Origin: a virus
IMG/VR virus record: IMGVR_UViG_3300037010_001635
Coordinates: 1 to 22,171 of that record
Direction: 5' to 3' (one strand)
Length of the DNA stretch: 22,171 nucleotides
The notes beneath the pieces were generated by a model. The model searched no databases and was not told where the DNA came from. It saw only the letters and a program-made list of their open reading frames with translations. Within the stretch, counting starts at the first letter, position 1. Each line of letters begins with the position of its first letter. Below, piece after piece: positions 97 to 22,136 of this stretch. Made by a program: the position numbers and the translations under genes.

Positions 97-151
97 AGTT
101 CAAATAAAGAAGAGCAACCCCCCCCCCACCTTGCTCTTCTTTATTTGAACT
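97..151. repeat. 21-bp perfect inverted repeat with C-rich loop
   Basis: The arms 97-117 and 131-151 are perfect reverse complements (21 bp). The 13-base loop 118-130 holds ten consecutive Cs followed by ACC. It lies between two convergent genes, and its right arm covers the first two bases of the minus-strand stop codon (150-152). It probably ends or insulates both transcripts, but there is no U-run after it in either direction. The C10 run stands out sharply in such AT-rich DNA. Confidence 0.8.
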
Positions 152-437
152 AAATAAAAAACTCTGGATATTCTTCTTTTAATTTTATATCACTAATATT
201 CCCTAAATTATTTTTGATATTAGATAATAAGTACTGAAATGATCTACGTTTCTTTTGATTTTTAAATCTATAATTGATTAAAAATCTAGGTTCTTCTCCA
301 ATCGCAAATGTATCCACAATAACATCTTCAACTCTATAAAGTCTATTGATTTTATCAACAAGCACATCATTTTTTTGAATAAAAACTCCTTCTTGCTTAA
401 TCATCTCATCCATAAAAAATTTTTCAATGTTATTCAT
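150..437 (-). CDS. Small tagged protein, unknown function
   Basis: 95 aa, not recognised. The middle (about 25-65) is rich in alternating hydrophobic and charged residues, suggesting a small beta-rich fold, followed by a helical tail. It ends in LKEEYPEFFI, one of eleven copies of a C-terminal tag in this window. The start ATG overlaps the stop of the upstream gene as ATGA (434-437), so it is probably translated by coupling. It is the last gene of a four-gene run driven from the promoter near 1590. The stop is TAG. Confidence 0.75.
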   Translation of the reverse strand: MNNIEKFFMDEMIKQEGVFIQKNDVLVDKINRLYRVEDVIVDTFAIGEEPRFLINYRFKNQKKRRSFQYLLSNIKNNLGNISDIKLKEEYPEFFI

Positions 438-646
438 ATGAAAAACTCTGGGTATTGATCTTTTACTTCTTCTTCTGACATTCCTTCACCTTCAATAAGA
501 GATTTTATAAATTTTGTATCTGCTCGAAACTCTCTAGATTTACCAAAAATTCGATATTTAACAGTTTCGCCATTTTCAATAATGTCAGTGATGTAAATAA
601 AATCTGCTTTGTTTGAAATTACTCTATAAACTTTGTTTACTTGCAT
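434..646 (-). CDS. Small tagged protein, unknown function
   Basis: 70 aa. Residues 1-40 look beta-rich (VYRVISNKADFIYITDI, then ETVKYRIFG), and residues 45-70 form a helix running into the tag VKDQYPEFFI. An AAGAGGA ribosome binding site stands 6 bases before the ATG. The stop overlaps the next start as ATGA. The architecture (short beta domain, charged helix, YPE tag) resembles the proteins at 150 and 673 without clear sequence identity beyond the tag. No function can be assigned. Confidence 0.75.
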   Translation of the reverse strand: MQVNKVYRVISNKADFIYITDIIENGETVKYRIFGKSREFRADTKFIKSLIEGEGMSEEEVKDQYPEFFI

Positions 647-672
647 TTATTTTCCTCTTATATAGAATCAAA

Positions 673-930
673 TCAAATAAAAAACTCTGGATAAACTTCT
701 CTAAATGTTTCTGGATTAAGATTCTTTACTTCTTTGAAATCAAAAATTTCAGGAAGAACTGCTTTGATATCTTGTATATGAGTCACATTGTACTTTTTAA
801 TATCTTCGAGATTGCCGTTTAATTGTTGACATTCAAAAAAGCTAGGGTCCATTTTTCTTCCATATATTCTGCAAAAACCTTTTTGATTCTTTAACTCTAT
901 ATAAATAATATCGCCAACTTTAACTTTCAT
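673..930 (-). CDS. Small tagged protein with MKVKVGDIIYI start
   Basis: 85 aa. The N-terminus (VKVGDIIYIEL, then GFCRIYGRKM) looks like a small SH3/KOW-type beta barrel; this is inference from pattern only. The C-terminus is helical and ends with the tag FREVYPEFFI. The start overlaps the stop of the 211-aa gene as ATGA (927-930) and there is no strong ribosome binding site of its own, so translation is probably coupled. Function unknown. Confidence 0.75.
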   Translation of the reverse strand: MKVKVGDIIYIELKNQKGFCRIYGRKMDPSFFECQQLNGNLEDIKKYNVTHIQDIKAVLPEIFDFKEVKNLNPETFREVYPEFFI

Positions 931-1562
931 ATCATTAACTCAGGGTAAATTTCTTTTTTCCATTTTTTAATAGCAAAACTCTCAGCATCATTAGAATGTT
1001 TTGGAAAATCTGAAAAGGCTTTCATAGTATTTGCACCTGTCCAGTATTTTATGAAATCTTTATTATATAGTTTATTTAAAGTGATGCAAAAATTATTTAT
1101 TTTAAACTCACCAGTTTCAATATTAAGAACTCCTTTAACTACAGTATTATATTGGTGTACTGCTATTAAAAAATAATCATTCCGTATAGTTTCTTTAAAA
1201 TTTTTAGATTTAAGAAATACATTAAAGAAATTTTCTTTAAAATCCTGAATATATGTTTCTATGTATTCTTTATCTAACATTGCTTGTTCTAAGTCTTTAG
1301 GTTTCATTAAGATATCATTTCTATATCTACTTTTGCCTCCTGGGTGTTGCAAAAGTAATTGTAAACAATAATCAGTTTCTATTTTATTGCAGCATTCATA
1401 ACCATCTCTTCTTAACTTTTCTGAATTAAAATAATCAGTATTTTTTAAATCATGAACTTCTTTATAAAACTCGAAGTTCATTTTAAAAAAACTTTTTAAC
1501 TCCATTAGAAGAGCAATATACGTGCTAAAATTAGCTTTTGTTAAATCTTCATAGAATTTCAT
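927..1562 (-). CDS. 211-aa unknown protein with variant tag YPELMI
   Basis: First gene of the left-hand operon, with an AAAGG site and the promoter at 1588-1622. It is the largest of the tagged proteins, mostly helical, with aromatic-rich stretches (MELKSFFKMNFEFYKEV) and two short beta-like segments near 150-165 (VVKGVLNIETGEFKINNF). No family was recognised. The end, KKEIYPELMI, is a diverged copy of the YPE tag and overlaps the next start as ATGA. The tag on a much larger, different body argues for a transferable module. Confidence 0.75.
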   Translation of the reverse strand: MKFYEDLTKANFSTYIALLMELKSFFKMNFEFYKEVHDLKNTDYFNSEKLRRDGYECCNKIETDYCLQLLLQHPGGKSRYRNDILMKPKDLEQAMLDKEYIETYIQDFKENFFNVFLKSKNFKETIRNDYFLIAVHQYNTVVKGVLNIETGEFKINNFCITLNKLYNKDFIKYWTGANTMKAFSDFPKHSNDAESFAIKKWKKEIYPELMI

Positions 1563-1587
1563 CTTGAACCTTTCTTTTTAGTAAACT

Positions 1588-1622
1588 ATTATATACTAAA
1601 ATGTGTTAAAAGGATATTAAAG
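1588..1622 (-). promoter_or_regulatory. Early/middle-type promoter with 17-bp box (copy A)
   Basis: On the minus strand CTTTAATATCCTTTTAA (1622-1606) is followed by 12 bases and TATAAT (1593-1588), about 25 bases before the start of the 211-aa gene. The same 17 bases at the same spacing occur at 8172-8188 and 20224-20240. Confidence 0.7.
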
Positions 1623-1652
1623 ATTGAAATTAATATTGATGTTTAAATTTTA

Positions 1653-2504
1653 TTAAATAAATTGTTCAAGGATGCAATCGTCGAAAAATTCTGTTCTGCC
1701 ACATCCTTCTTCAATACATATTCTATAATTTGCAAATTTCTCATGCAAAGAAGTTTCTAAAGCAAAACATTCTTGAGTTTCTATTATATCTATAATAGTG
1801 TATTCACCAAAATCTTTAAATAGACTTACTGACCTCTTTTCAAAATCTCCAGATAAACCTATTTTAACAGCTGAGTGTTGAGGAAAATGGAGAACATAAA
1901 CAACTCCAGAATAATCTGTTCCTTCGTTGTTTCTTCTTTCATTAAAGTGTTTTGCTTTTGAAATAGACATTATATCTTTTATTTCTGGCGATTTAGAAAC
2001 ATTGTCAACACCGTATCGTTCAAGACATGTTACAGCAATCTTAGCTGCATTATTATAATTTCTTGAACCATTTCGTTCAAAATTTGTTTGTTTGGCACCT
2101 TCTCTATTTTCTGGGAGTTTGGAAGTATGATCAACACCATATCTTTCAAGGCAAGTAGTCCTTGCTTTATCAGGATTAACAAATGTCTCTGAACCATATT
2201 TTTCTAATTTGGTAAGTTTTGTTTTTGTTTGTACTTCTGGATTTTTAATTCCACAAGAATGCGAACAAGTAATTGAATATTTGCCATTTTTAAGGAATTT
2301 GTTATCTTTATTACAAACAGGACATTTTGTATATTCTGTTATATTATTTAAAATACAGTGAACTCTTTCTCTTATTGACTTTCTTGATGTATCTTCAATC
2401 CAAGGAGTTAATGAGAGTATTTCTTTAAATTCACTTTCTGAGAAATTTCTTCTTATAAATCCTGAATATTTTCCAGAAGTTTGTAAATACTGCAAATCTT
2501 GCAT
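1653..2504 (-). CDS. Free-standing homing endonuclease, zinc-finger plus T5orf172/GIY-YIG-type nuclease
   Basis: 283 aa. Residues 61-84 hold a CPVC...CSHSC zinc-binding cluster. Residues 95-170 hold repeated LERYGV-type DNA-binding modules (KLEKYG, CLERYGVDHTSK, NFERNG, CLERYGVDNVSK). Residues 199-275 form a T5orf172/MUG113-like GIY-YIG domain: VVYVLHFP, VKIGLSGDFEKR with Arg224, the likely catalytic Glu250 in FALETSLHEKF, and TEFF. It sits just downstream of the sheath gene, is separated from it by a terminator, and has its own TTAA-N12-TATAAT promoter, a free-standing mobile gene layout. Its paralogue is at 19458. Nuclease type is family knowledge; homing activity is inferred. Confidence 0.8.
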   Translation of the reverse strand: MQDLQYLQTSGKYSGFIRRNFSESEFKEILSLTPWIEDTSRKSIRERVHCILNNITEYTKCPVCNKDNKFLKNGKYSITCSHSCGIKNPEVQTKTKLTKLEKYGSETFVNPDKARTTCLERYGVDHTSKLPENREGAKQTNFERNGSRNYNNAAKIAVTCLERYGVDNVSKSPEIKDIMSISKAKHFNERRNNEGTDYSGVVYVLHFPQHSAVKIGLSGDFEKRSVSLFKDFGEYTIIDIIETQECFALETSLHEKFANYRICIEEGCGRTEFFDDCILEQFI

Positions 2505-2533
2505 TTATTACCTTTTATTAAATAAATTAGTTT

Positions 2534-2555
2534 ATTATACTTTAATTTTACTTAA
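2534..2555 (-). promoter_or_regulatory. TTAA-N12-TATAAT promoter of homing endonuclease 1
   Basis: On the minus strand TTAA (2555-2552), 12 bases, TATAAT (2539-2534), then the AAAAGG site and ATG of the endonuclease gene. It partly overlaps the terminator tail of the sheath gene. Confidence 0.6.
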
Positions 2556-2580
2556 TAAAATCCCCAGAAGGGGAAATTAA
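2556..2580 (-). terminator. Intrinsic terminator of the tail sheath gene
   Basis: Directly after the sheath stop the minus strand reads TCCCC-TTCT-GGGGA followed by TTTTATT. This is a 5-bp GC-rich stem (2561-2574) with a T-rich tail, well placed to end the late sheath transcript before the endonuclease gene. Confidence 0.65.
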
Positions 2581-4335
2581 TTATGCACCAATGATAGAAG
2601 CAAAAGAATTTACTCCAGCATTTGTGAATCTCAACTGAATGAACTCGGCCACAAACGTTGGCTTGACATAAACATCGACAACTAATTCATTTCTTGAAAT
2701 GACATCTGGAGTATTATTAGTGTTATCACAAACTACCAAATAATCTTGAATACCACGACCAGCTTGAACTGAGCCCAAGAAAGGATTAATCATCGCTTGA
2801 ATACGATTACGAGTGAATGAATCATTGAATTCAAAAACTTGGTACTTAGCCATTTTCCATAAAGCTCTTTCGAGTGTATTGAAAAGACCACGAACATTGA
2901 TTCTATCAAAACTTGAAGGTTTATCAAGAAGAGTCTTTTGACCCCAACAAACAGTTCCTTGACCAGGGAAAGCAACAACAGGATTTAAACCAGCTTTGTA
3001 TAGTAAATCACGAAGAGCTTGATTTGGATTATATGCTAATTTATTAACATTTTTAATCTGACCTCTATCAAGACCAGCAGATGCCCACCATGAAGCAAGT
3101 TTAGTGTTAGTCACTGCTCTAAGTCCAGCTAATGAACCAGCACAGTTAATCCAACGATATTTATCAGCGTATTTATCATAAACATTTAGGTAGTTTGCAC
3201 CAACCATTGCAAATGAACTATTAACATTTAAACCAGTTCCACTTGGAGGAAGGTCTGCAGTATTTCCTACACGCCATTTGATAATATTTTGAACAGCAAC
3301 ATTAGCTGTTTGTCCAACAACATCTTTAAAATTAGCACCGATAAATGCGATACAATCTTGTCTGTTGTTTGCTAGGTTAAATGCAGCCATTGGATTAGCT
3401 TCATTAGCAATAACAATATCAATATCAATTTCTTCTTTATTAGAAAAAATATCATAAGCATCTGCTATATCACCTTCAGTTAATGTAGCAACAGTTACGC
3501 CACCAGTAAGTTGAATAGGTTTTGCCCCAACATCAGAGTTACCATAAAGATATGATTTAATTGCGTGAATACCAGCTTGAGTTTCAACAGTATTGTCTTT
3601 AACATATATTAAATCACTTTGTGTGTTAATAACAGTTTCAATATACATTGATTTTTTAGATTCATCACGAGCTGCTTCATTTAGAGAAACAACATAATGT
3701 TCTTTAATAACACCATCATGTGTAACAATGATTGCAAATTCATCATATCCTGAAAGACTGTTATTAATTGCTAGTCTTGGAACATATGTAAAAATATCAG
3801 TTAAAAGAACACCTTGTTGAACATATTTACCAGCTGCGAAATCTGCAGGAGTAGCGACACTTACTGTAGTTGTATTAGCGTAATCACCAGGAGCACGAGA
3901 AATAAATTTAAGACCTGCAGAAACGCCTGTAGGGAAAACAATCAAATCTTCATTAGCATTAAAATCTGAAATGTTTCTTATCATTATTGTATTTGAAGAG
4001 GATACTGTAGTATCATAATTTGCATCATTTGCAGCTGCAAGAACTGTTTGAGCAATACCGATAGCATTTTTATTTGCAGAAGAAAATCCACGAGAAACTA
4101 AAAGAATATTTCCATAATCCAAGAAAGTTTTACATTGATACCAGTCATTATAATTGGTATTTGAAGGTTTTCCATAATAGTATTCTAAATCAACACTATT
4201 TGTAACAATTCCATAAGTTCCAACAGGGCCTTTTTCAAAAGTTCCTCCAAAAACTGCAATAGAATTTGATATTGTAGGTACAATTCCAGAAGCATCAACT
4301 TCTAAAACACTAACACCAGGGGATAACATAGGCAT
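2581..4335 (-). CDS. 18: Tail sheath protein (T4 gp18-like)
   Basis: 584 aa (T4 gp18 is 659). It polymerises around the tail tube and contracts on infection. The N-terminal MLSPGVSVLEVDASG and the C-terminal stretch with VYVKPTFVAEFIQLRFTNAG are typical of the family, as is the KLASWWASAGLDRG region. An upstream in-frame ATG at 4341 lies only 1 base after the TAAGGAGG site, whereas the ATG at 4335 is 7 bases after it, so 4335 (MPMLSPGV) is preferred. It has its own late promoter at 4464-4471 with a leader of about 120 bases, and a terminator at 2556-2580. Confidence 0.93.
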   Translation of the reverse strand: MPMLSPGVSVLEVDASGIVPTISNSIAVFGGTFEKGPVGTYGIVTNSVDLEYYYGKPSNTNYNDWYQCKTFLDYGNILLVSRGFSSANKNAIGIAQTVLAAANDANYDTTVSSSNTIMIRNISDFNANEDLIVFPTGVSAGLKFISRAPGDYANTTTVSVATPADFAAGKYVQQGVLLTDIFTYVPRLAINNSLSGYDEFAIIVTHDGVIKEHYVVSLNEAARDESKKSMYIETVINTQSDLIYVKDNTVETQAGIHAIKSYLYGNSDVGAKPIQLTGGVTVATLTEGDIADAYDIFSNKEEIDIDIVIANEANPMAAFNLANNRQDCIAFIGANFKDVVGQTANVAVQNIIKWRVGNTADLPPSGTGLNVNSSFAMVGANYLNVYDKYADKYRWINCAGSLAGLRAVTNTKLASWWASAGLDRGQIKNVNKLAYNPNQALRDLLYKAGLNPVVAFPGQGTVCWGQKTLLDKPSSFDRINVRGLFNTLERALWKMAKYQVFEFNDSFTRNRIQAMINPFLGSVQAGRGIQDYLVVCDNTNNTPDVISRNELVVDVYVKPTFVAEFIQLRFTNAGVNSFASIIGA

Positions 4336-4407
4336 ATTCATGCCTCCTTATATATAGATTTGACCAATTGAAAAATCTCTTTTTCTTACCGTTTCTATGA
4401 GATAAAT

Positions 4408-4438
4408 CTTGAACTCTCAAGTTCGGGAAAAGACCCGA
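4408..4438 (-). promoter_or_regulatory. Two adjacent hairpins in the sheath mRNA leader
   Basis: Between the late promoter and the sheath start lie TCGGG/CCCGA (4423-4427 with 4434-4438, 6-base loop) and CTTGA/TCAAG (4408-4412 with 4417-4421, 4-base loop), only one base apart. They could stabilise the mRNA 5' end or control translation. No known riboswitch was recognised. Confidence 0.35.
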
Positions 4439-4463
4439 CATACAGTAATTATTGGTATCCATC

Positions 4464-4471
4464 TATTTATA
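4464..4471 (-). promoter_or_regulatory. T4-type late promoter of the sheath gene
   Basis: TATAAATA on the minus strand, matching the T4 late consensus exactly, 9 bases after the gp13 stop and about 130 bases before the sheath start. It gives the sheath a transcript independent of gp13. Confidence 0.75.
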
Positions 4472-4480
4472 ATTTTGTTT

Positions 4481-5938: not shown

Positions 5939-6130
5939 TTATATAAAGAGTTCAGGAAAAAATTCTTTGAGTTTATTGTGAATCTCTTGAATTTCTTCGC
6001 GTTCTTGTATATTTTCATTTTCTGATGAGTTAGATGTTTTTTCTAATAATTCTAACATTTTATCAGTGTATTTTTTTGAAATTAAAGCCTGTTCTAAAGA
6101 CATCTCTTTATAAACATTAGAATTTGACAT
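5939..6130 (-). CDS. Small tagged helical protein
   Basis: 63 aa, strongly charged and predicted mostly helical or coiled coil (SLEQALISKKYTDKMLELLEKT, then NIQEREEIQEIHNKLKEF). It ends in the tag LKEFFPELFI. The start overlaps the end of the 129-aa gene by 14 bases. It lies just upstream of gp31 in the same unit. Function unknown. Confidence 0.7.
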   Translation of the reverse strand: MSNSNVYKEMSLEQALISKKYTDKMLELLEKTSNSSENENIQEREEIQEIHNKLKEFFPELFI

Positions 6131-6563: not shown

Positions 6564-6800
6564 TTAAATAAAATGTTCAGGATATTTTTCTTTAATTTCT
6601 TCTTGGCTGTCAAATCCTTCCTTGATTAGTGTGTATTGTTCTACAAAGTGTGTATTATCAGTGATTAGTTGTTCATTACCATTTTCGGTATAAGTCCATG
6701 TCAGTGTTGCGTTGCTATTAACACTGACAACAAGTATTACATTTTTTATGCCTTGAAGCCATCCATCCATTAAATAATACTTGCCTTTTTCAAAATTCAA
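6564..6800 (-). CDS. Small tagged protein, TTG start
   Basis: 78 aa. The body looks beta-rich (KGKYYLMDGW, NVILVVSVNSNATLTWTYTENG), followed by a short helix SQEEIKEK and the tag KYPEHFI. The likely start is TTG at 6800, which overlaps the upstream stop as TTGA, analogous to the ATGA overlaps elsewhere. The alternative ATG at residue 11 has only a distant ribosome binding site. It is the last gene of the unit starting at 8125. Function unknown. Confidence 0.65.
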   Translation of the reverse strand: MNFEKGKYYLMDGWLQGIKNVILVVSVNSNATLTWTYTENGNEQLITDNTHFVEQYTLIKEGFDSQEEIKEKYPEHFI

Positions 6801-9306: not shown

Positions 9307-9570
9307 CTAAATAAATTTCTCTGGATAGTATTCTCTTAGTGCAATTAAAATTTCCTCTTTTGATACTTTTACTTTTAAATATGGTTCAAAATTAATTTCT
9401 GAAGTAAAAGTTGGTCCTGACGAACAAGTAATAATTTGACTAACCTTTGCTGAGGCTGGAATACTAACATCAGCTAAACTAAATGATATTCCAGTATCTA
9501 TTCCACCAATGGTTGCACTTTTTGGTTCAATAAAGTCAGGTATAGTATAAATTTGTGAACCAACTTTCAT
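9307..9570 (-). CDS. Small tagged beta-rich protein
   Basis: 87 aa. It starts MKVGSQIYTI, like the KVGDIIYI start of the protein at 673. The middle alternates small and hydrophobic residues (ISFSLADVSIPASAKVSQIITCSSG), suggesting a beta sandwich or barrel. Then comes a helix KEEILIALRE and the tag YYPEKFI. A GGAGATGG site precedes the ATG. It is downstream of dUTPase in the same unit. Function unknown. Confidence 0.7.
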   Translation of the reverse strand: MKVGSQIYTIPDFIEPKSATIGGIDTGISFSLADVSIPASAKVSQIITCSSGPTFTSEINFEPYLKVKVSKEEILIALREYYPEKFI

Positions 9571-10953: not shown

Positions 10954-11187
10954 TTAGATTAGTTTTTCTGGATAAGATTCTTTAAGCATTTCAATAAGTT
11001 CTTCTCTTGTGATATTAAAGTTTTTTTCCAAATAATCATCAAAAACTAACTTAGAATGCTCCTTTAAATTTGTACGAGGTTTATAAGAAGTTAAAGTTTC
11101 TGCAATTTTTCCATTATTACGATAATCATACTTCTCCAGAAATTCTTCCATCATTACTTTGCCAATATTATTAATTGGTGATATCAT
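10954..11187 (-). CDS. Small tagged protein following DNA ligase
   Basis: 77 aa, charged and mostly helical. The C-terminal part, NITREELIEMLKESYPEKLI, is a clear example of the extended tag: helix, then YPE, then a hydrophobic end. It overlaps the ligase stop as ATGA (11184-11187), so it is co-translated with ligase. It may act on DNA or with ligase, but only the position suggests it. Confidence 0.72.
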   Translation of the reverse strand: MISPINNIGKVMMEEFLEKYDYRNNGKIAETLTSYKPRTNLKEHSKLVFDDYLEKNFNITREELIEMLKESYPEKLI

Positions 11188-12612: not shown

Positions 12613-12924
12613 TCATATAAAATACTCAGGAAATTGTTCTTTAATAAGTTCAAGGGTAGAACAATTAGATATCCATTCAATAGAATCTTCAATAATTCTC
12701 CACTCTTTTGCCTCTTTGCCTATTTGTTTTGAATATGCATAAGTATTAGAAACTTCTTTTGAGAACTTTGTATTTGGGTTGTTTCTTGGATCAAATAAAT
12801 AAAACTCTGTCAAAATATCATTTTTCAAAGATGCAAAGTACCAACGATTATCATCAAAGCCATTTATATCAGCAAATTGAACTTCTACATTGTATTTTAA
12901 ATATTTAACTTTATCTTCTTTCAT
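12613..12924 (-). CDS. Small tagged protein, paralogue of the next gene upstream
   Basis: 103 aa. It starts MKEDKVKYLKY and ends SIEWISNCSTLELIKEQFPEYFI, nearly identical at both ends to the 94-aa neighbour at 12921, while the middle differs (an inserted INGFDDNRWYFASL region and PNTKFSKEVSN). This is a tandem duplication with a diverged core. The start overlaps the neighbour's stop as ATGA. The core looks beta-rich; function unknown. Confidence 0.75.
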   Translation of the reverse strand: MKEDKVKYLKYNVEVQFADINGFDDNRWYFASLKNDILTEFYLFDPRNNPNTKFSKEVSNTYAYSKQIGKEAKEWRIIEDSIEWISNCSTLELIKEQFPEYFI

Positions 12925-13205
12925 ATAAAATACTCAGGAAATTGTTCTTTAATAAGTTCAAGGGTAGAACAATCAGATATCCATTCAATAGATTCTTCTA
13001 AAAATCTCCACACTTTTGCTTCTTTACCTATATGTTCTGAATATTTTGTAGAATAATCATAAGCTTTAAGACTTTTTAAAACATTGTTACGTTCATCAAA
13101 TATAAAAAAATCAATTAAAATATCATTTTCCAAAGTTGCAAAATAAATATAATTTAATTTGTCTGCTACTCTGTATTTTAAATATTTCAATTTATCTTCT
13201 TTCAT
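12921..13205 (-). CDS. Small tagged protein, paralogue of the gene at 12613
   Basis: 94 aa. The pattern KYRVADKLNYIYFATLENDILIDFFIFDERN is followed by a conserved IGKEAKVWRFLEESIEWISDCSTLELIKEQFPEYFI block shared with its copy. It has only a weak ribosome binding site (GGTTAATAAGT) made from the end of the membrane-protein gene at 13211, suggesting coupling. Both copies keep the terminal tag unchanged. Function unknown. Confidence 0.75.
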   Translation of the reverse strand: MKEDKLKYLKYRVADKLNYIYFATLENDILIDFFIFDERNNVLKSLKAYDYSTKYSEHIGKEAKVWRFLEESIEWISDCSTLELIKEQFPEYFI

Positions 13206-14486: not shown

Positions 14487-14885
14487 CTAATCCTTGTAAA
14501 GTTTCATAAGTGCCATCATTCCACGTTCTGACAACTTAGTGAAGTCAAAATTTTCAAAGACATTCAAAGGAATAATATCCAAAAGTAGCAGTCCGTCCCA
14601 CGATAAATCAGCTAATATCTCAAGTGCTTTAGAAATATCTGGTTTATTTACATTAATTCTTGAAAGAATTGATCTTAAGTATGGAATTGGAATTACGTGT
14701 CTAAAGGCATTAAGTTTTCGTAGAGCTAGTATTTTGTTGAGGTCTCTTATACTTTCAGCATAAACTACCCTGTTACTAAATAAATAAAAGAAAATTTCTG
14801 CGGAAGGTTCTTCTTTAATAAATGCAGAAACACATTTTGTTACATCGTGTTTATCAATAAATTCAAACCATTGTTCTCTTGTCAT
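14487..14885 (-). CDS. 132-aa unknown protein with KLYKD end
   Basis: Last gene of the late operon. Mostly helical, with Leu-rich helices (NKILALRKLNAFRHVIPIPYLRSILSRI, EILADLSWDGLLLLDIIPL). It ends KLSERGMMALMKLYKD, one of four copies of a C-terminal module in this operon. Its ribosome binding site (AGGAGC) is made by the final codons of the endolysin gene. It ends base-to-base against gp4 on the other strand. A holin or anti-holin role is possible from position beside an endolysin, but there is no convincing membrane segment. Confidence 0.72.
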   Translation of the reverse strand: MTREQWFEFIDKHDVTKCVSAFIKEEPSAEIFFYLFSNRVVYAESIRDLNKILALRKLNAFRHVIPIPYLRSILSRINVNKPDISKALEILADLSWDGLLLLDIIPLNVFENFDFTKLSERGMMALMKLYKD

Positions 14886-14886
14886 T

Positions 14887-15501
14887 TTATGCTCCTAAAA
14901 TAACTTTAAAGTTATTATATTTTAATTTTCTGTCATCTAAACCAATCGCTCCACCATTAATAAGTTTAGTCATTTTAATAATATCATCAGCGTCACATAC
15001 AGCATTTAGGCCTCTGGTTTTCCAAAACCATAAAGCACTTTCAATAGCTCCTTCTGTTGTTTCCAAATATGTAACAACATCAGTTAAAGTTTTACCTTTA
15101 AAATCTGCAAAAGCTTTATAATTATCTTTACCTGTTAATTGTATAACTCCTCGTCCTCTGTATAGATATCCTTCTCCTGATACTTCTGACCCATTTCCCA
15201 AACGATTAGCATAAACTTTATTAGCAATTTTTTGAGGATTTTTAGCAAATCCAGTAGTGCTTGCAATATTTGGAAAATACTTGGAAAATGTACTAACCAA
15301 CCCTTCTGCACTATAATTAAGATTCTCTTTAAAAACTGTAAAACCATTTGATTCGTGACCACATTGTGCCAAAAACCCTGCTATTCTATTTGTAGTATTA
15401 ATCTCATATTTTGTGAAGTATTTTTCAAGCACTGCAAAAATGATGGCTGTGTTTCCATTTAAAGGGAACATTTCTTTAAATTTTTCAGGTGTTAATAACA
15501 T
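14887..15501 (-). CDS. Endolysin, GH19 (chitinase-like) muramidase
   Basis: 204 aa. It should cut the glycan strands of host peptidoglycan at lysis. GH19 features are FLAQCGHESNGF with catalytic Glu50, FKENLNYSAEGL with the second acid at Glu59, and the GEGYLYRGRGVIQLTGKDNYKAFAD block (about 108-132). The C-terminal half holds ESALWFWKTRGLN and KLINGGAIGLDDR, also family-typical. No signal peptide or membrane segment is present, so release probably needs a holin. The ribosome binding site AAGGAT is encoded by the KD codons of the upstream gene. It carries neither tag, ending VILGA. It sits between two KLYKD genes. Confidence 0.87.
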   Translation of the reverse strand: MLLTPEKFKEMFPLNGNTAIIFAVLEKYFTKYEINTTNRIAGFLAQCGHESNGFTVFKENLNYSAEGLVSTFSKYFPNIASTTGFAKNPQKIANKVYANRLGNGSEVSGEGYLYRGRGVIQLTGKDNYKAFADFKGKTLTDVVTYLETTEGAIESALWFWKTRGLNAVCDADDIIKMTKLINGGAIGLDDRKLKYNNFKVILGA

Positions 15502-15504
15502 TGT

Positions 15505-16290
15505 TTAATCCTTGTATAATTTAAACATAGCTTGAATTTTTTTATCTTTAAATTTAGAATTGTCCATAAGCAATTTAACTTTAACTACATCCGGCAAAGT
15601 TTCTAGCTCTTTAAGAAATGGCAATTTTGTTACATTTAAATCTTTAATTTTATCAGCAAATGGTATAGTTTTAAGTTCAGAACATCCACTGAACAAATAA
15701 TCCGTTCTAGTTACTTTTGATATATCTAATTTTGGAACTTCTTTAAGTTTTGAACAACCATTGAACATAAAAGCCATGTTTGTTACTTCTGATGTATCAA
15801 ATTCAGGAACTTTTTCAAGTTTTGAACATCCATCGAACATACTAGCCATATTTGTTACTTCTGATGTATCAAATTTTGGAACTTCTGTAAGTCCTGTACA
15901 CCCATTGAACATATAAGCCATGTTAGTTACACTTGGGGTTTCAAATTTTGGAACTTCTCTAAGTGATTTACATCCATAGAACATATAAACTATAGTTTTT
16001 ACACTCGATGTATCTAATAGTGGAACTTCTTTAAGTGAAGTACACCCACTGAACATACTAGACATATCAGTTACTTTTGATGTATCTAATTTTGGAACTT
16101 CTTTAAGTGATTTACATCCATAGAACATATACACTGTATTTGTTACATTTGATGTATCTAAATCAGGGACTTCTTTAAGTGATAAAGACCCGTAGAACAT
16201 ATTTGACATATCTATTATATGAGAATAATCTATACCTGAAATATCTTCATTATTTAAAATTTTATCTCTGAGTTCTTCTTTAGTTATCAT
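15505..16290 (-). CDS. BspA-like 24-residue leucine-rich-type repeat protein (DUF285) with KLYKD end
   Basis: 261 aa. Residues 38-205 hold seven 24-residue repeats of the type LKEVPKLDTSKVTDMSSMFSGCTS, the BspA/DUF285 family known from surface proteins of bacteria and from Trichomonas. A partial repeat (IDYSHIIDMSNMFYG) precedes, and a degenerate one follows. There is no signal peptide, so it is probably not secreted by itself; a virion-surface or binding role is possible. The C-terminus (LPDVVKVKLLMDNSKF...) ends QAMFKLYKD. It lies between the 202-aa KLYKD gene and the endolysin. The AAGGAT ribosome binding site comes from the upstream KD codons. Confidence 0.85.
   Translation of the reverse strand: MITKEELRDKILNNEDISGIDYSHIIDMSNMFYGSLSLKEVPDLDTSNVTNTVYMFYGCKSLKEVPKLDTSKVTDMSSMFSGCTSLKEVPLLDTSSVKTIVYMFYGCKSLREVPKFETPSVTNMAYMFNGCTGLTEVPKFDTSEVTNMASMFDGCSKLEKVPEFDTSEVTNMAFMFNGCSKLKEVPKLDISKVTRTDYLFSGCSELKTIPFADKIKDLNVTKLPFLKELETLPDVVKVKLLMDNSKFKDKKIQAMFKLYKD
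15676..16179. repeat. Seven 72-bp coding repeats (24-residue units)
   Basis: In-frame tandem repeats of 72 bases within the BspA-like gene. The units share LxEVPxxDTSxVTxMxxMFxGCxx and differ at the variable x positions, which suggests copy-number and sequence change by recombination between units. Confidence 0.85.
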
Positions 16291-16293
16291 TGG

Positions 16294-16902
16294 TTAATCC
16301 TTGTAAAGCTTGACTAGGGCTTGAGCGGCCTTTTCATTAAATTTTCCTTTTTTTGCATCACCAGTTATTTTAGCAAGAAGATGTAAAGGAATTTTATTTA
16401 AAATTTGAAAATTAGGCAAATATTCTTCTGCTAATTTGTTTAGAAAAAATACAATACCACATTGAATTGACAATGGAACTATATCAAATAAACCATTTCT
16501 TTTTAAATATCTTAAGGTCATAATATTAATTTTTGACAAGTATATTAGCCAGGTACTCCAAAGAGAATCATACGGGAGTCTTCCATCATCATAAACGAAC
16601 CACCATTTTCTCAGAACATCTGCATTATGCATAATAGCAATTTGCCAATCCTCTTCAGTAAGACAGTCTTTATTAATATCTGTAATTGCAGCAGGGTTCT
16701 TAGATAAAACGTACTCTTTAACTTTATCTGTTGGTTTAGACATCCAAATAATTAAATTAGTATTACTTTGTACACAGTACATTTGTATGTTCTCTGTTTG
16801 CTGTTTATCACTAATTAATGAAATGTCCCTAGGATCTTTTTTTAGCATTTTTAAAAGCTTTTCCTCTGACATTTTAGATGTATCCATTATATCTTTAAAC
16901 AT
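16294..16902 (-). CDS. 202-aa unknown protein with KLYKD end
   Basis: Helical throughout, with Trp-rich stretches (IWMSKPTDKV, VLRKWWFVYDD, SLWSTWLIYL). Pieces such as NPAAITDINKDCLTEEDWQIAIMHNADVL recall helical repeat proteins (DUF4116-like), a weak impression only. It ends IPLHLLAKITGDAKKGKFNEKAAQALVKLYKD, aligning over about 30 residues with the ends of the proteins at 14487, 15505 and 16906. Its ribosome binding site (AGGA) is formed by the AGG AAT codons that end the upstream gene. Function unknown. Confidence 0.72.
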   Translation of the reverse strand: MFKDIMDTSKMSEEKLLKMLKKDPRDISLISDKQQTENIQMYCVQSNTNLIIWMSKPTDKVKEYVLSKNPAAITDINKDCLTEEDWQIAIMHNADVLRKWWFVYDDGRLPYDSLWSTWLIYLSKINIMTLRYLKRNGLFDIVPLSIQCGIVFFLNKLAEEYLPNFQILNKIPLHLLAKITGDAKKGKFNEKAAQALVKLYKD

Positions 16903-16905
16903 TGT

Positions 16906-17208
16906 TTAATTCCTGTAAAGTTTAATTATAGCTAAAATTTTCCTAGAGTTGTCTTTTTGAATATGAAACTCATTATAAAATCTAGCAACTAATTTCATCA
17001 CATCTGGGTCTGAATTAAAAACTAAATCATAGACATCTTTAACATCTGGAGCAAAAAGAGCAATTTGAGAATCCGAATAACTTTCAGTAACAAAATGTTT
17101 TAAAAGAATATCATAATCGAACTGTTCAGGCTCTTGAAACTTTTTAGCTACTTCTTTCATTTTATTATCAGTGAGAAAATACCACTGATTTTGTCTTGAC
17201 ATTTTCAT
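16906..17208 (-). CDS. 100-aa unknown protein with KLYRN end
   Basis: Helical (MKEVAKKFQEPEQFDYDILLKHF, VYDLVFNSDPDVMKLVARFYNEF). It ends SRKILAIIKLYRN, the most diverged copy of the KLYKD module. It starts 4 bases after the gp14 stop without an obvious ribosome binding site; the second ATG (residue 3) is an alternative start. The final codons supply the AGGA site of the next gene. Function unknown. Confidence 0.7.
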   Translation of the reverse strand: MKMSRQNQWYFLTDNKMKEVAKKFQEPEQFDYDILLKHFVTESYSDSQIALFAPDVKDVYDLVFNSDPDVMKLVARFYNEFHIQKDNSRKILAIIKLYRN

Positions 17209-17211
17209 TGT

Positions 17212-17874
17212 TTAAAATCTGCCGAACACGGAATCAACATCAGGAACAACAACTTTAGTTGTTTGAGGAATTTTAGTCACAGTAGCAGCTGTATCAATAT
17301 CTTCATTTCCTTGGATTAGCTCATCGAAGTAATTTTCAAGAGTTACAAAGTTATCTCCACTTGCAGTAACTGGGTCAATTTCATTTTGAGGTTTTTGATA
17401 GTAAGTATTACAAACTAATTTATAGACATTTTTATTATCTGAAGTTGGAAAAAGATTTGAACTACCAGGAGTTTCAAGTTGGCAATCAGTAATTTCAACA
17501 ACACCACCAGAAGGCAGAATTATCAAGTTTCCAATAATATCATTTACACCTTTTGAAGTATATACATCAGGATAAATTTTTTCAATTGTTTTTCTTGAAA
17601 TGAAAAAAGCCATACTCGCAGTTGATGAGTATCCAAATTGAGTAAAGGCATAGTTAATATTATCCATAGATTCTGATGTTTCTGGAAGTGCATAAATATC
17701 AAAAGCTTTGTTGTTATCTGTCTTTATGTGTGAATAATCTCCAAAAACTTCCAAATCCCTATTAATCTTTTCTACAACCAAAAATTTAACTAATAAACCA
17801 TAAAGATTTATTAGTTCGTCTATCATTGCTGCATTGAGTGAATATTCTGGGCTGTTAATTAAATTAAAATTCAT
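17212..17874 (-). CDS. 14: Neck protein (T4 gp14-like)
   Basis: 220 aa (T4 gp14 is 256). It works with gp13 to close the head portal and attach the tail. The order of features fits gp14: an early MIDELINLYGLLVKFLVVEK region, TSESMDNINYAFTQFGYSSTASMAFFISRKTIEKI (about 69-103), NDIIGNLIILPSGGVVEITDC, then YKLVCNTYYQKPQNEIDPV and a variable tail. Identity is low, so the call rests on pattern and on context in a late operon. The AAGGGG site lies between the ATPase stop and its ATG. gp13 itself is far away at 4481, unlike T4, where 13 and 14 are adjacent. Confidence 0.7.
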   Translation of the reverse strand: MNFNLINSPEYSLNAAMIDELINLYGLLVKFLVVEKINRDLEVFGDYSHIKTDNNKAFDIYALPETSESMDNINYAFTQFGYSSTASMAFFISRKTIEKIYPDVYTSKGVNDIIGNLIILPSGGVVEITDCQLETPGSSNLFPTSDNKNVYKLVCNTYYQKPQNEIDPVTASGDNFVTLENYFDELIQGNEDIDTAATVTKIPQTTKVVVPDVDSVFGRF

Positions 17875-17884
17875 TTGTTACCCC

Positions 17885-19366
17885 TTAAACATATAGTGAT
17901 ACTAGTGTAGCCCAATTTGGTAGTTTTGCTTTTCTCAATGCTACTGCAATATCATATGCTCTAATAGTAAGAGGTTTTCCAGATTTCATAAATGCAGGTG
18001 TAATATATTGAACATCTACTTTAGGTCTTTCTGTATCAGGTGTAAGTGCATCAATAATTTCATCAATATCATCAGCAGAAACACCATCTGTTTGAGCATT
18101 TGCCAAAGCAATAGTTCTAATTCTTCTAATAACATCTTGTTGATGTAAATAAACATCTACAAATATTGAACGAGATTTAATTGCATCATCGAACCAAGAT
18201 GCTTTTTTATTACTAATAAAAATTACTTGACCAGTAAAGAATATTTTAGAAGGAAGTTTTCCTTTGCCTTTACCTATTAAACCAGGGTTTTGAGCAATAG
18301 TATCATCCAAATCCATAACAAATTGATTATACTGTGCTGTGGACATTGTTGATGTGTTAACAGTAGAAGTTGGAGACATCCAACTTGCTTCACGAACACC
18401 AGAAGAGTCCAAAAGTCCTTTAAACATATTTGCACTGTCTGCATCTTCTAAAACAGAATCAGAATCATCAAATACCAATAACTTATCTCTATTAAGATAT
18501 ATGTTGGCATAAAGTGCCAAAGGAGATGCTTTGAGTCCTTTAAAATAAACCCATTCTTTACCAGCTGTACCAAGAATTTCAGTAAGCTTTTTAGTGACGT
18601 GAAAAGTTTTACCTATGCCTGGTCCACCAGCAACAATTAAAGAATTTTGATATTTTAAAGCAACTACTGAAACCAAATCTTCAATATCTTGGAAAACCGT
18701 ATCTGGATTAGCATAAAGAGTACCATTATACTGTTCTTCTACTTTCTGCAGTTTTGTAATGATTGAATTTGTTTCTTCTTTTCCTAGAAAAATTTCATAG
18801 TCTGCCATCTCACCCATTTTTGCTGCAATTTTTTTAACAGCTGTAGGTTGATTAGCTTTATCCAATGGAAGGTCTTTTGACCGAAGCCATTCTGCTCTTC
18901 TTGCTGTAGAATTTGGAAGTGACTCATTAATGTCACCTCCTTCTTCTTTAATAGAGAATTTGCCTAATTTTCCCCTTTTGATGTCATGAATAATTTTATC
19001 AATAACTTTAACAATGTTTAAATCGGGGCCAAATACTGTTGAAGAAGAAGGCTTTGCAAAGTCAGTATTATCTGTTCTCCAAAAGTCAAGAGATGAGATT
19101 TCAAAAGCATCTTTTGAAGGTGTCCAATTAAACCTAAGTTGAGTTCCTGAATTATTGATAAGTCTGTATCCTTTTCCCTTGCCATGAATTTGTGATTTAA
19201 AATCTTCAAATCCAAGAGCAAAGAACTTTGAGCCGAATTTTCGTTCAATAATTCTACTCATTAGTTGAACAGCCTTTTCAATGTTATTTTCTGAAAAGAC
19301 AGCCTCACATAAAGGCATATCTGTTGAATGAGCTGGTTTATTTTGGTGAAAGTCTAAAAATGACAT
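17885..19366 (-). CDS. AAA-family ATPase
   Basis: 493 aa. Residues 1-150 are an unknown N-terminal domain. Walker A is GGPGIGKT (247-254) and Walker B is LLVFDD (296-301). A sensor-1-like Asn is in FISNKK (about 387), and an arginine-finger-like Arg400 is in KSRSIFVDVYL. A late C-terminal helical part (STIRAYDIAVALRKAKLPNWATLVSLYV-like region, with LTIRAYDIAVALRKA) could be the lid. It opens the late operon with its own late promoter at 19394-19401 and an AGGAGA site, ahead of the gp14 neck gene. Partner and substrate are unknown; a role in assembly or remodelling is inferred from operon position only. Confidence 0.8.
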   Translation of the reverse strand: MSFLDFHQNKPAHSTDMPLCEAVFSENNIEKAVQLMSRIIERKFGSKFFALGFEDFKSQIHGKGKGYRLINNSGTQLRFNWTPSKDAFEISSLDFWRTDNTDFAKPSSSTVFGPDLNIVKVIDKIIHDIKRGKLGKFSIKEEGGDINESLPNSTARRAEWLRSKDLPLDKANQPTAVKKIAAKMGEMADYEIFLGKEETNSIITKLQKVEEQYNGTLYANPDTVFQDIEDLVSVVALKYQNSLIVAGGPGIGKTFHVTKKLTEILGTAGKEWVYFKGLKASPLALYANIYLNRDKLLVFDDSDSVLEDADSANMFKGLLDSSGVREASWMSPTSTVNTSTMSTAQYNQFVMDLDDTIAQNPGLIGKGKGKLPSKIFFTGQVIFISNKKASWFDDAIKSRSIFVDVYLHQQDVIRRIRTIALANAQTDGVSADDIDEIIDALTPDTERPKVDVQYITPAFMKSGKPLTIRAYDIAVALRKAKLPNWATLVSLYV

Positions 19367-19393
19367 ATAATCTCCTAGTACATATAATATCTC

Positions 19394-19401
19394 TATTTAT
19401 A
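19394..19401 (-). promoter_or_regulatory. T4-type late promoter of the ATPase-gp14-lysis operon
   Basis: TATAAATA on the minus strand, 28 bases before the ATPase start. Genes from 19366 to 14487 run in the same direction without an evident internal promoter. Confidence 0.72.
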
Positions 19402-19457
19402 TAATGAGAAGTTAATTGGAAATTTTAAATAAATATTTTTAAAATTTAACTTTAAAA

Positions 19458-20177
19458 TTATAAGAGTTTTAAAATGTCCTCTGAGAAAAATTCTGTTCTA
19501 CCATATCCTTTTTCAAGGCACATTCTGTACTTGGCAAATTTCTCGTGTAAAGAAGCCTCCAAAGCAAAACATGTTTGAGTTTCTCTCATATCTATTTTGA
19601 TGTACTCACCAAAATCTCTTTTTAATGATGTTGACCTTACATTAAAAGACCCGCTTATCCCTATTTTAACAGCTTTGTGCTGAGGAAAATGGAGAATATA
19701 CACCAAACCGGAATAATCTTTATCTTCATTATTTCTTCTTGATTGATAGTGATTTGCTAAAGAAATGGATTTTTTGTCTTGAACTTCTGGCATTTTAGAA
19801 ACATTGTCAACACCATATGCTGCCATTACAACAGCTTTCTTTTTGTCTTTAACAGCACTGCTAGAAGCTGAGCACTTTTTGGAACAGTACATATGATATT
19901 TTGCATGGTAGAACTCAAAATTTACGTCTTTGTTACACTCAGGGCATTTTGGATGTTCTGTAAAATTATGTTTAATACTAAAAATTCGTTCTTTTACAGA
20001 TGTCCTTGATATATCTTTAAGCCAAGGAGTTAATGAGCAAATCTCATTAAACATTTCAGTAGTCATTGCCCGAGAGTTCATTATTCCATTTGAATTTCTT
20101 GGCAATTTAAAACTTAATTTATTTAACCCTGTTCTTGCTCTTTTGATGCTGTTTACTTTAATATCTCTGAGTGCCAT
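19458..20177 (-). CDS. Free-standing homing endonuclease, zinc-finger plus T5orf172/GIY-YIG-type nuclease
   Basis: 239 aa, a paralogue of the protein at 1653. It shares SLTPWLKDISRTSVKERIFSI, the zinc cluster CPEC (78-81) with CSKKC (98-102), one AAYGVDNVSKMPE module, and the C-terminal nuclease: LVYILHFPQHKAV, KIGISGSF with Arg181, the likely catalytic Glu207 in FALEASLHEKF, and GRTEFF. It lacks the extra LERYGV modules of its paralogue and has a basic N-terminus. It lies between the portal gene and the late operon, with its own boxed promoter (copy C). The AAAGGA site supports the start. Confidence 0.8.
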   Translation of the reverse strand: MALRDIKVNSIKRARTGLNKLSFKLPRNSNGIMNSRAMTTEMFNEICSLTPWLKDISRTSVKERIFSIKHNFTEHPKCPECNKDVNFEFYHAKYHMYCSKKCSASSSAVKDKKKAVVMAAYGVDNVSKMPEVQDKKSISLANHYQSRRNNEDKDYSGLVYILHFPQHKAVKIGISGSFNVRSTSLKRDFGEYIKIDMRETQTCFALEASLHEKFAKYRMCLEKGYGRTEFFSEDILKLL

Positions 20178-20205
20178 TAAATGTCCTTTAATTTCTTTAT
20201 GTGTT

Positions 20206-20240
20206 ATTATACTACATATATTATTAAAAGGATATTAAAG
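20206..20240 (-). promoter_or_regulatory. Early/middle-type promoter with 17-bp box (copy C)
   Basis: CTTTAATATCCTTTTAA (20240-20224), 12 bases, TATAAT (20211-20206) on the minus strand, 29 bases before the homing endonuclease start. Confidence 0.7.
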
Positions 20241-20242
20241 TT

Positions 20243-20269
20243 AAATTTTAAAATATTTATTTAAAATTT
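20243..20269. repeat. 10-bp AT-only inverted repeat
   Basis: AAATTTTAAA (20243-20252) and TTTAAAATTT (20260-20269) are perfect reverse complements around a 7-base loop. It contains only A and T, so the hairpin would be weak; it may end the portal transcript inefficiently. Confidence 0.5.
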
Positions 20270-20270
20270 T

Positions 20271-20336
20271 ATTAGACATTTATTAAATGTTTATTAGACA
20301 TTTATTAGACATTTATTAGACATTTATTTAACATTT
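20271..20336. repeat. Six tandem 11-bp iterons after the portal gene
   Basis: Units start at 20271, 20282, 20293, 20304, 20315 and 20326. Four are ATTAGACATTT exactly; the second is ATTAAATGTTT and the last ATTTAACATTT. The array ends at the last base before the portal stop codon (20337-20339). A period of 11 is close to one DNA turn, so each unit would face the same side of the helix. Confidence 0.85.
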
Positions 20337-21848
20337 TTACATATCTTCGTCAGGCACTTCATAGAACGCCTTGAATAAAGGATTTTTCTTTTCTTTGGCG
20401 ATTTCTTTTAGATTGTCCTCAATTTCAAGGTCTGTTAAACCGAAGATAATTTTCATTGTTTTATTATAAGAGAAAACATTTCCTGCGTAATCTTTCGCTG
20501 TCGCGTACAGGTCAAGTTTTGAGGTCCAAGCATCGAGTGTCATTTTTTCAATAAATTTGTTTTCGTTGATAAATTGAACTTCAATCTTATCTTCATAGTC
20601 ACTCCATTCTGCTGCAGTTAAGATACCTGATGAAATAACCTCACGTTGAAGAATTTTCTTGAACATTGATGAATATACTTTACGAATTTTTGAAATAAAC
20701 ATAAAGAATTTAAGGTCATCTTTTGTAACTGTTGTTGAAGAAAAATCGAACGTACCATCTAATTCTGTCTGAAAAGGAATTCTGTTAGCAGGAATTTTAA
20801 GTGCTTTATATAATTTTTTATAGAAATAAATTATATCACCTAGTTCTCCTAGGTTTCCAGTTTCATCAATAGTTTCAACAGTTGTTCCTTTTCCTCCAGA
20901 ACGATTTGCAAACCAGTAGTCCTCTACCATTGACGTAATGTGTTGTTGATTTGTCACTTCACCAGTTTCTACGTTATAGAACTTTTTGTACTTAAATTTG
21001 TTTTGGTATTGATTTAAAACAGCCTCTCCAGATTTGTTTGGAAGGTCTCCAATATCGACATTAAATACGCGTCTTGAAACAGACCGAGAAAATCTCATAG
21101 GTATGAGTAAATCTTCAAGCGTCTTTAATTGATTGGCAGGTTTAATAGCTTGTTCAAGATATCCTTCAATAATACCGTCAGCATACAAACTAAAATCTTC
21201 CTTAACAATTTCTTCTCGAGAAAATTCTTGTTCATCTCTAACAAATGAATCAGATGTTAAAAAGGTTCCCTCTTGTTTTTTTAAATAAGAATAAGTTTCC
21301 TTTTCTGTATTAAAATAAAAGTAAATTGGGTCAATAAATTCAATTTTTTGAATACCAGATTTGGTGTTTGTTTTATCATACGCCAAATGAGCTACCATCT
21401 GACCATCGATATATCCATTTCTTACAATCGAAAACAGATTTCTATCTATGTTCATTAGCTTATAGATTTTATCGAATTTTTCAACAATCGCTTCTTTGAT
21501 TTTTTCATTTTCTTCATCAATGTTTACTTCGATTGCTCTTTTTTCATCAGTGCTAAATATTACTTCATTTACAACTTCTTCAATTGCATCATTGACATCT
21601 GCTTGTCTCGCTAAAATTCTATAAGAAGCAATTTTGAGTTTCTGTCTTTCGAGAAGAGTGGCTTTGTCTGCATTAGCATAAAGGCCTCCTCCATACGAAC
21701 CATCAAAAAATCCTCCAACAAATGGAGAATAATCTTCATCTGCGGTTACTCTAATCTGAATTGGATTAATTTCTGTAGAAAGTTCTTTGGTTTTTTTAAT
21801 GCCGAGAAAACTTTTAACTGTCTCGGTAAGTGTGTTTTTGGCTGTCAT
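20337..21848 (-). CDS. 20: Portal vertex protein (T4 gp20-like)
   Basis: 503 aa (T4 gp20 is 524). It forms the dodecameric ring through which DNA enters and leaves the head. Family-typical stretches are RQADVNDAIEEVVNEVI (about 82-98), RFSRSVSRRVFNVDIGDLPNKSGEAVLNQYQNKFKYKKFYNVETGEV (about 253-300) and EDYWFANRSGGKGTTVETIDETGNLGELGDIIYFYKKLYKALKIP (about 311-355). The start has a GGAG site 9 bases upstream and overlaps the stop of a 16-codon leader as ATGA. The late promoter is at 21914-21921. Six 11-bp iterons follow the stop. Confidence 0.95.
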   Translation of the reverse strand: MTAKNTLTETVKSFLGIKKTKELSTEINPIQIRVTADEDYSPFVGGFFDGSYGGGLYANADKATLLERQKLKIASYRILARQADVNDAIEEVVNEVIFSTDEKRAIEVNIDEENEKIKEAIVEKFDKIYKLMNIDRNLFSIVRNGYIDGQMVAHLAYDKTNTKSGIQKIEFIDPIYFYFNTEKETYSYLKKQEGTFLTSDSFVRDEQEFSREEIVKEDFSLYADGIIEGYLEQAIKPANQLKTLEDLLIPMRFSRSVSRRVFNVDIGDLPNKSGEAVLNQYQNKFKYKKFYNVETGEVTNQQHITSMVEDYWFANRSGGKGTTVETIDETGNLGELGDIIYFYKKLYKALKIPANRIPFQTELDGTFDFSSTTVTKDDLKFFMFISKIRKVYSSMFKKILQREVISSGILTAAEWSDYEDKIEVQFINENKFIEKMTLDAWTSKLDLYATAKDYAGNVFSYNKTMKIIFGLTDLEIEDNLKEIAKEKKNPLFKAFYEVPDEDM

Positions 21849-21895
21849 ATTTTAATACTCCATTTCTTATCTGATTGTTTTAAGTGAAAATTCAT
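21845..21895 (-). CDS. Possible 16-aa leader peptide of the portal gene
   Basis: Between the late promoter and the portal gene, an AAAGGA site stands 5 bases before an ATG at 21895. The frame MNFHLKQSDKKWSIKI ends with a TGA that overlaps the portal ATG as ATGA. This looks like a short leader translated to couple or tune portal synthesis. The peptide itself has no recognisable feature apart from being basic. Confidence 0.45.
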   Translation of the reverse strand: MNFHLKQSDKKWSIKI

Positions 21896-21913
21896 TTTAA
21901 TCCTTTAATATAC

Positions 21914-21921
21914 TATTTATA
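21914..21921 (-). promoter_or_regulatory. T4-type late promoter of the portal gene
   Basis: TATAAATAGT on the minus strand, about 19 bases before the leader ATG and 66 before the portal ATG. Confidence 0.72.
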
Positions 21922-21929
21922 AGAATGTC

Positions 21930-22136
21930 CTAAATAAAATATTCAGGATACTCACATTTGTACTCTTGGAGTTTGTCTTTTATTTTATTTAAAGTCGTGA
22001 ACATTTTTTCTTCATTTTCTGCGTATTTGTCTTTTTTTGAAAATAATCGAATCATAGTAGTAAGTTGTCTTTCTTTTATCTTTAATTTTTGTATATGTAA
22101 CTCTGGGTTATTTTCATATTCTGATAGTACGCTCAT
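21930..22136 (-). CDS. Small tagged helical protein
   Basis: 68 aa, charged and probably coiled coil (ELHIQKLKIKERQLTTMIRLFSKKDKYAENEEKMFTTLNKIKDKLQ). It ends YKCEYPEYFI, the copy of the tag furthest from the others. A GAGGA sequence lies 11 bases before the ATG, a rather long spacing. Its promoter is outside the window. Function unknown. Confidence 0.7.
   Translation of the reverse strand: MSVLSEYENNPELHIQKLKIKERQLTTMIRLFSKKDKYAENEEKMFTTLNKIKDKLQEYKCEYPEYFI

Follow-up and report, generated by a model that had tools for sequence, protein, structure and literature searches.

A short C-terminal peptide on many unrelated small phage proteins, putatively a docking tag for a MoxR-VWA complex

Why should small phage proteins with dissimilar bodies end in the same few residues? 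The question is raised by IMG/VR record IMGVR_UViG_3300037010_001635, a complete virus record of 22,171 bases that was analysed over its whole length (the window). A sequence-only reading of the window had described eleven open reading frames (ORFs) with the C-terminus (K/R)E-x-(Y/F)PE-x-(F/L/M)-I-stop. All eleven are present on the minus strand with the reported C-termini (Table 1), and both the range of body lengths (63–211 amino acids) and the variable codons and stops were reproduced. The element is probably a short modular docking tag, consisting of a helix-like stretch followed by [Y/F/H/N]-P-E-x-[F/L]-[I/V/L]-COOH and putatively read by a complex of a MoxR AAA+ ATPase and a VWA protein. 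A short tag common to dozens of unrelated phage proteins appears to be new.

Within the window, [YFHW]P[ED]xx[IVL]-stop ends 10 of 39 non-overlapping predicted genes, against 0.006 expected from the rate inside proteins; the greedy gene caller omits one of the eleven tagged ORFs. Pfam and PHROG scans of the tagged window proteins gave no useful match, and an AlphaFold model of one of them (predicted local distance difference test score, pLDDT, 45) gave no usable structure. The window is assigned as a fragment of a T4-like phage because its portal protein shares 54% identity with that of Vibrio phage phiKT1024 and ~44% with those of Campylobacter phages. Genes for tail sheath, neck and ligase and a small-terminase-like gene point the same way.

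Exact DNA patterns for the tag retrieved many further viral contigs, several with at least 10 tagged genes. Genes were predicted with a simple scheme based on the longest ORF, the records are mostly fragments from metagenomes, and sampling started from tagged phages. Tags in predicted genes were counted as PE-x-[hydrophobic]-[IVLF] at the C-terminus with any residue at −6. They end 74 of 341 predicted genes in phiKT1024, a T4-like Vibrio phage isolate of 191 kb, where the protein-internal rate predicts 0.10, and 76 of 349 in phage Va1. Among metagenomic records the counts are 48 of 176 in G011 (0.05 expected), 21 of 74 in G014 and 24 of 74 in G009. The C-terminal rate is hundreds of times above the internal rate. 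A DNA pattern scan of whole records gave 35 matches on one strand of phiKT1024, with none for the reversed control, 39 in Va1 and one in phage G. The same scan gave none in T4, KVP40, CP220, CP30A, P-SSM2, HTVC008M, phiKZ, CBB, Atu_ph07 and SPO1. When the final 8 positions were searched for every three-residue motif, with none chosen beforehand, PE..I at the C-terminus ranked highest in phiKT1024 (67 observed vs 0.08 expected) and PE..L in record G031. The collected set holds 299 distinct tagged proteins from T4-like, N4-like and jumbo phages. Bacterial genomes, when scanned, yielded 12 scattered matches with no more than one tagged ORF per genome, so that the tag looks phage-specific.

The consensus was built from one representative per body cluster. 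It reads hydrophobic at −13 and −10, K/R at −9, E at −8, Y/F/H at −6, P, E, a variable residue, F/L and finally I/V/L. The core of the motif as originally described stands, as does the helix-like stretch before YPE, with its hydrophobic −13/−10 and K/E at −9/−8. The description was too narrow at two positions: −6 is Y, F or H and also N, C, K or L, and −1 varies by phage among I, V and L. As every member of the consensus set had to have P and E, near-misses at one position were counted separately. They number 53 at −6, 24 at −2, 10 at −5 (mostly Ala), 2 at −4 and 1 at −1, with 0.03–0.5 expected by chance per class. Glu −4 and the aliphatic C-terminal residue are the least replaceable positions, because near-misses there are almost absent. 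The last residue follows a phage-specific preference (permutation p ≤0.0002), being Val in 16 of 17 tags of G022, where Val makes up 22% of I+V+L, and Ile in 46 of 48 tags of G011. A sorting signal of the PEP-CTERM or LPXTG type, in which a transmembrane helix and a basic tail come after the motif, does not fit, since here the motif ends the protein and the preceding 24 positions are K/E-rich without a hydrophobic stretch.

Selection had been proposed to act on the protein and not on a DNA repeat. A DNA repeat as the source of the tag was rejected, and a second signal was found in part of the set. In 86 of 226 tags the stop codon overlaps the next ATG (ATGA). These tags use CCG at 56% and GAG at 86%, place GGAG 8 bases before the next start and favour codons ending in A before TGA. 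Their Pro-Glu codons, typically CCGGAG, also serve as the Shine-Dalgarno sequence of the next gene. Overlap sites lie at window positions 434–454 and 927–947 and at many tags in contigs L082–L120; in ORF 434–646 the Pro-Glu codons, upstream of the 150–437 start, read CCAGAG. These features would suit a reading in which the tag is the translated ribosome-binding signal of the following gene and no protein signal at all. As a general explanation, that reading is contradicted by the other 140 tags and is extremely improbable. In those tags Ile, Glu, Phe and Tyr codons lie near background usage (GAA 85%; ATT/ATA/ATC 47/26/26 vs 46/30/24). Between equal-length orthologues of phiKT1024 and Va1, non-synonymous differences are about five times fewer in the tag core than in the bodies (2.9% vs 15.8%), and synonymous differences are 16.6% and 14.7%. 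Orthologue pairs are tagged in both phages in 66 cases and discordant in 5. The tag is under protein-level selection, because uncoupled tags use background codons and the tag core is depleted in amino-acid change but not in synonymous change. Where genes overlap, the tag is adapted to carry a ribosome-binding site and is not derived from one.

The bodies were described as unrelated, and they are. BLAST clustering without the last 14 residues placed the 299 proteins in 243 clusters, some of which may merge since BLAST is weak on short proteins. Pfam matches among 148 representatives include DUF285/leucine-rich repeats, DUF7448, nucleotidyltransferase and AAA domains; the others had no match. 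A single homologous family was rejected on these two grounds. In most seemingly untagged homologues the tag is present in degenerate form (NPELLI or NPERFI, for example). The clear exception is the window DUF285 protein at 15505–16290, which ends in KLYKD and has repeats 60–66% identical to those of three YPE-tagged proteins of contig L015. Because this untagged protein matches tagged bodies, tag and body are separable.

The best-supported partner, from genomic association, is suggested to be a MoxR AAA+ ATPase together with a DUF2201 protein, in which a zincin-like metallopeptidase domain (HExxH) is joined to a VWA domain. G011 carries N4-type virion RNA polymerase and RNA polymerase genes and has few homologues in common with the T4-like phiKT1024. 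By BLAST of phiKT1024 against G011, G010, G014 and G009, the main common genes encode the MoxR ATPase, the DUF2201 protein and a PIN-PhoH protein; some tagged proteins and nucleotide-reductase genes are also common. The ATPase in tagged phages matches AAA_5 (1e-11) and bpMoxR (2e-4), and MoxR profile matches lie beside VWA. A VWA profile matches every searched tag-rich record of at least 80 kb (G010, G011, G019, G020, phiKT1024 and Va1; E 1e-83 to 1e-211) and also G021, which has four tags. No match was obtained in eight tag-free controls (T4, KVP40, CP220, CP30A, P-SSM2, HTVC008M, phiKZ and SPO1). Distant VWA versions occur in CBB, Atu_ph07, G and AR9, phages without a tag set. Likewise, no tag set was found in four phages with more distant VWA/MoxR genes, Bacillus AR9, Moorella MTATph1, PVPSE1 and PALS_2. 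Neither VWA nor MoxR was matched in the 22-kb window, all of which is a fragment of its phage, or in L015 and L078; judged by its T4-like relatives, the window phage would carry the pair.

The VWA profile scan gave 24 loci, and most of the closer ones are accompanied by tags at a distance of up to 10 kb; the three most distant (L159–L161) are not. In a VWA tree with uneven branch support, tag-associated VWAs cluster together, separate from AR9, MTATph1 and L159–L161. PhoH served as an independent sampler, with 37 contigs of 43–210 kb: three with a close VWA have 14–35 tag matches, and there is a single match across the remaining 34. The baseline tag-match rate is very low. PhoH itself was rejected as the partner, since a tag set is missing from the 34 contigs that have PhoH and lack a close VWA. 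Tagged genes also adjoin the pair in tag-poor loci. In L139 they stand immediately upstream of VWA, and in L145, L150 and L158 downstream of it; in L147 they fall between VWA and MoxR, in L146 they follow MoxR, and in L155 they are found on three sides. When labels were shuffled within each locus, VWA/MoxR neighbours were tagged 2.5–4 times above chance, with 9 vs 2.3 expected in tag-poor loci (0 of 20,000 shuffles as high) and 14 vs 5.5 expected in tag-rich loci (p 0.00005).

The metal-ion-dependent adhesion site (MIDAS; DxSxS...T...TDG) is invariant at D274, S276, S278, T332 and D356 in 21 VWAs, tag-free relatives included. An AlphaFold model of the G010 VWA protein (pLDDT 83) matches VWA domains in Foldseek, among them NorD of NorQD, and neither VWA nor MoxR gave a PDB sequence match at the cut-offs used. 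A TROVE/Ro60-like protein with a VWA domain of its own is encoded in phiKT1024 (L084:20150–21658), the same phage as a tag set.

Several points weigh against MoxR-VWA as the reader. The assignment is based on genomic association. VWAs of tagged phages were the seeds of the VWA sample, and all three positive PhoH contigs were known beforehand. The adjacency shuffle ignores the natural clustering of small genes, which makes its p-values optimistic. Tags are few or absent in part of the VWA clade: AD45-P1 has one, L156 one pattern match in 127 kb and L157 three in 306 kb. An alternative C-terminal dialect was sought in L156, and none was convincing. In G009, a phage with 24 tags, the VWA-metallopeptidase (L105:7930–9156) has HNMLH in place of HEMLH, a change of the catalytic zincin Glu to Asn. 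Proteolysis is not the universal outcome, because this tag-rich phage lost that residue. The reader may instead be a partner from the host, or a shared protein too diverged for BLAST to pick up.

A host protein (chaperone, protease or RNA polymerase) could read the tag, with MoxR-VWA merely present in the same phages. The nearly tagless members of the VWA clade would suit this view. Host range points the other way: KVP40 is tag-free, yet its recorded host is V. parahaemolyticus, as for the phiKT1024-like phages pv27 and phiTY18. The last residue also differs between phages beyond composition, and genes adjacent to VWA/MoxR are enriched in tags. A host reader is considered unlikely. The short, C-terminal form of the tag would also be compatible with a role as degron or anti-degron, by which a protease of host or phage would determine how long the small proteins last, and the phiKT1024 annotation includes a Clp-like endopeptidase and other proteases. 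The pattern is unlike the ssrA tag, however, and a Clp-type protease would leave the VWA association unexplained, which makes this reading improbable.

The sequence-only reading had left docking, localisation and packaging side by side. The data support docking, through a C-terminal signal that acts at the protein level and sits on unrelated small proteins; they do not support packaging. A capsid or virion packaging signal, as a C-terminal counterpart of T4 capsid-targeting sequences, would account for many small non-structural proteins sharing one tag and would agree with the virion-assembly role proposed for the jumbo-phage metallopeptidase-VWA pair (PMC7824862). In phiKT1024, however, 0 of 43 genes in the structural block are tagged vs 74 of 298 elsewhere (p 1.6e-5). 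Tags also occur in T4-like, N4-like and jumbo phages with differing capsid lineages. Capsid targeting of the T4 type does not match either, the tag being C-terminal instead of N-terminal and the phiKT1024 structural block tag-free. We regard packaging as very improbable. Outside that block, one third of phiKT1024 genes of at most 150 amino acids are tagged (70 of 210).

Under the preferred reading, in which the phage MoxR-VWA complex reads the tag, the near-invariant Glu −4 would serve as the acidic ligand to the MIDAS metal of VWA, as the ligand Glu does in Rea1/Midasin (PMC6624252). Metal coordination at a MIDAS is completed by a Glu or Asp of the ligand, and it is via such a Glu that Rea1 removes Rsa4 and Ytm1 (PMC6624252). 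The aliphatic C-terminus would fill a pocket adjoining the MIDAS and add specificity, and MoxR would supply force. For NorQD, the MIDAS is required for client activation and dispensable for NorQ binding (PMC9976466). The tagged bodies would be clients or, in the version we find more attractive, adaptors, each of which would bind a target from host or phage and deliver it to the AAA+ motor, to be remodelled, or to the zincin domain, to be cleaved. Taken further, the tag would constitute a recruitment code. Up to one third of small non-structural proteins would be interchangeable adaptors or clients of one MoxR-VWA-metallopeptidase machine through the Glu-MIDAS contact, new functions would arise by tagging any body, and host targets would be remodelled or cleaved. 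This extension is tentative, and we hold it to be possible with less than even confidence. Large phages encode many small proteins of unassigned function, and if the tag marks the set of one machine, a six-residue rule would sort these at once. The tag would then predict the partner, and the gene set would become testable together in the isolated phages phiKT1024, Va1 and pv27. The MoxR-vWA-metallopeptidase pair of phages, so far only proposed for virion assembly, would gain a different and testable client list.

Short terminal peptides that send unlike proteins to one destination are known from the T4 capsid-targeting sequence and encapsulin cargo peptides. There the destination is the capsid and the T4 signal is N-terminal; no sequence likeness to the tag was noted. 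Poxvirus ankyrin/PRANC proteins likewise combine varied binding bodies with one C-terminal module, which recruits SCF. The likeness is one of analogy only, as they belong to eukaryotic viruses and the ubiquitin system. Pairs of MoxR with a VWA partner are a known kind, including NorQ/NorD, CbbQ/CbbO, RavA/ViaA and MoxR-vWA ternary conflict systems (PMC7159879), and their VWA MIDAS is thought to bind an acidic client residue (PMC9976466). Those pairs serve one or few clients, whereas here one C-terminal tag is common to dozens of unrelated small proteins and the VWA protein includes a fused zincin-like domain. Group 2.2 jumbo phages encode a MoxR/vWA-metallopeptidase pair (PMC7824862) with the same domain architecture, more distantly related to the VWAs described here. 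Its distant versions (CBB, Atu_ph07, G and AR9) sit in phages without the tag set, and a text search of that paper for "C-terminal motif" found nothing. Rea1/Midasin with Rsa4 and Ytm1 (PMC6624252) is an AAA+ machine whose MIDAS takes a ligand glutamate, and thus an analogue for the proposed docking chemistry. It differs in that the ligand Glu lies in a folded ubiquitin-like domain and not in a C-terminal peptide, and in being a eukaryotic single chain. The tagged set had been suggested as a possibly undescribed system, and no report of the peptide or of commonly tagged phage proteins was found in the literature searched, a search that most subscription papers lay outside.

Table 1. Tagged ORFs of the window and an untagged relative of tagged proteins
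Feature	Coordinates	Strand	Length (amino acids)	C-terminus	Remarks
Tagged ORF	150–437	−	95	LKEEYPEFFI	tag codons 150–170
Tagged ORF	434–646	−	70	VKDQYPEFFI	stop overlaps ATG of 150–437 (ATGA)
Tagged ORF	673–930	−	85	FREVYPEFFI	
Tagged ORF	927–1562	−	211	KKEIYPELMI	stop overlaps ATG of 673–930
Tagged ORF	5939–6130	−	63	LKEFFPELFI	
Tagged ORF	6564–6800	−	78	IKEKYPEHFI	TTG start
Tagged ORF	9307–9570	−	87	LREYYPEKFI	
Tagged ORF	10954–11187	−	77	LKESYPEKLI	
Tagged ORF	12613–12924	−	103	IKEQFPEYFI	paralogue of 12921–13205
Tagged ORF	12921–13205	−	94	IKEQFPEYFI	65% identity to 12613–12924
Tagged ORF	21930–22136	−	68	YKCEYPEYFI	
DUF285/BspA-type repeat protein	15505–16290	−		QAMFKLYKD	no YPE tag

Other shared C-termini were seen. 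At 14487–17208 of the window, four consecutive minus-strand genes (14487, 15505, 16294 and 16906) end in xxKLYKD or KLYRN. Their bodies look dissimilar, one being the DUF285 repeat protein, and this C-terminus is possibly a second tag. Alteromonas phage AD45-P1, which carries MoxR-VWA and just one YPE tag, has four successive genes with similar ends (QLRKEQ/QLRKG; L133:33616–35586), perhaps paralogues or another C-terminal tag. Just after VWA in L156, which has almost no YPE tags, two small genes share a different C-terminus (VPNEMLDMEF and VTDELQNLDF; L156:11238–11800). A neck protein of phiKT1024 and its neighbour share SDPAPID[VI]A (L082:45153–46614). The window also encodes two paralogues, at 1653–2504 and 19458–20177, that by sequence resemble homing endonucleases; their C-terminal part is GIY-YIG-like, and they contain motifs with cysteines.

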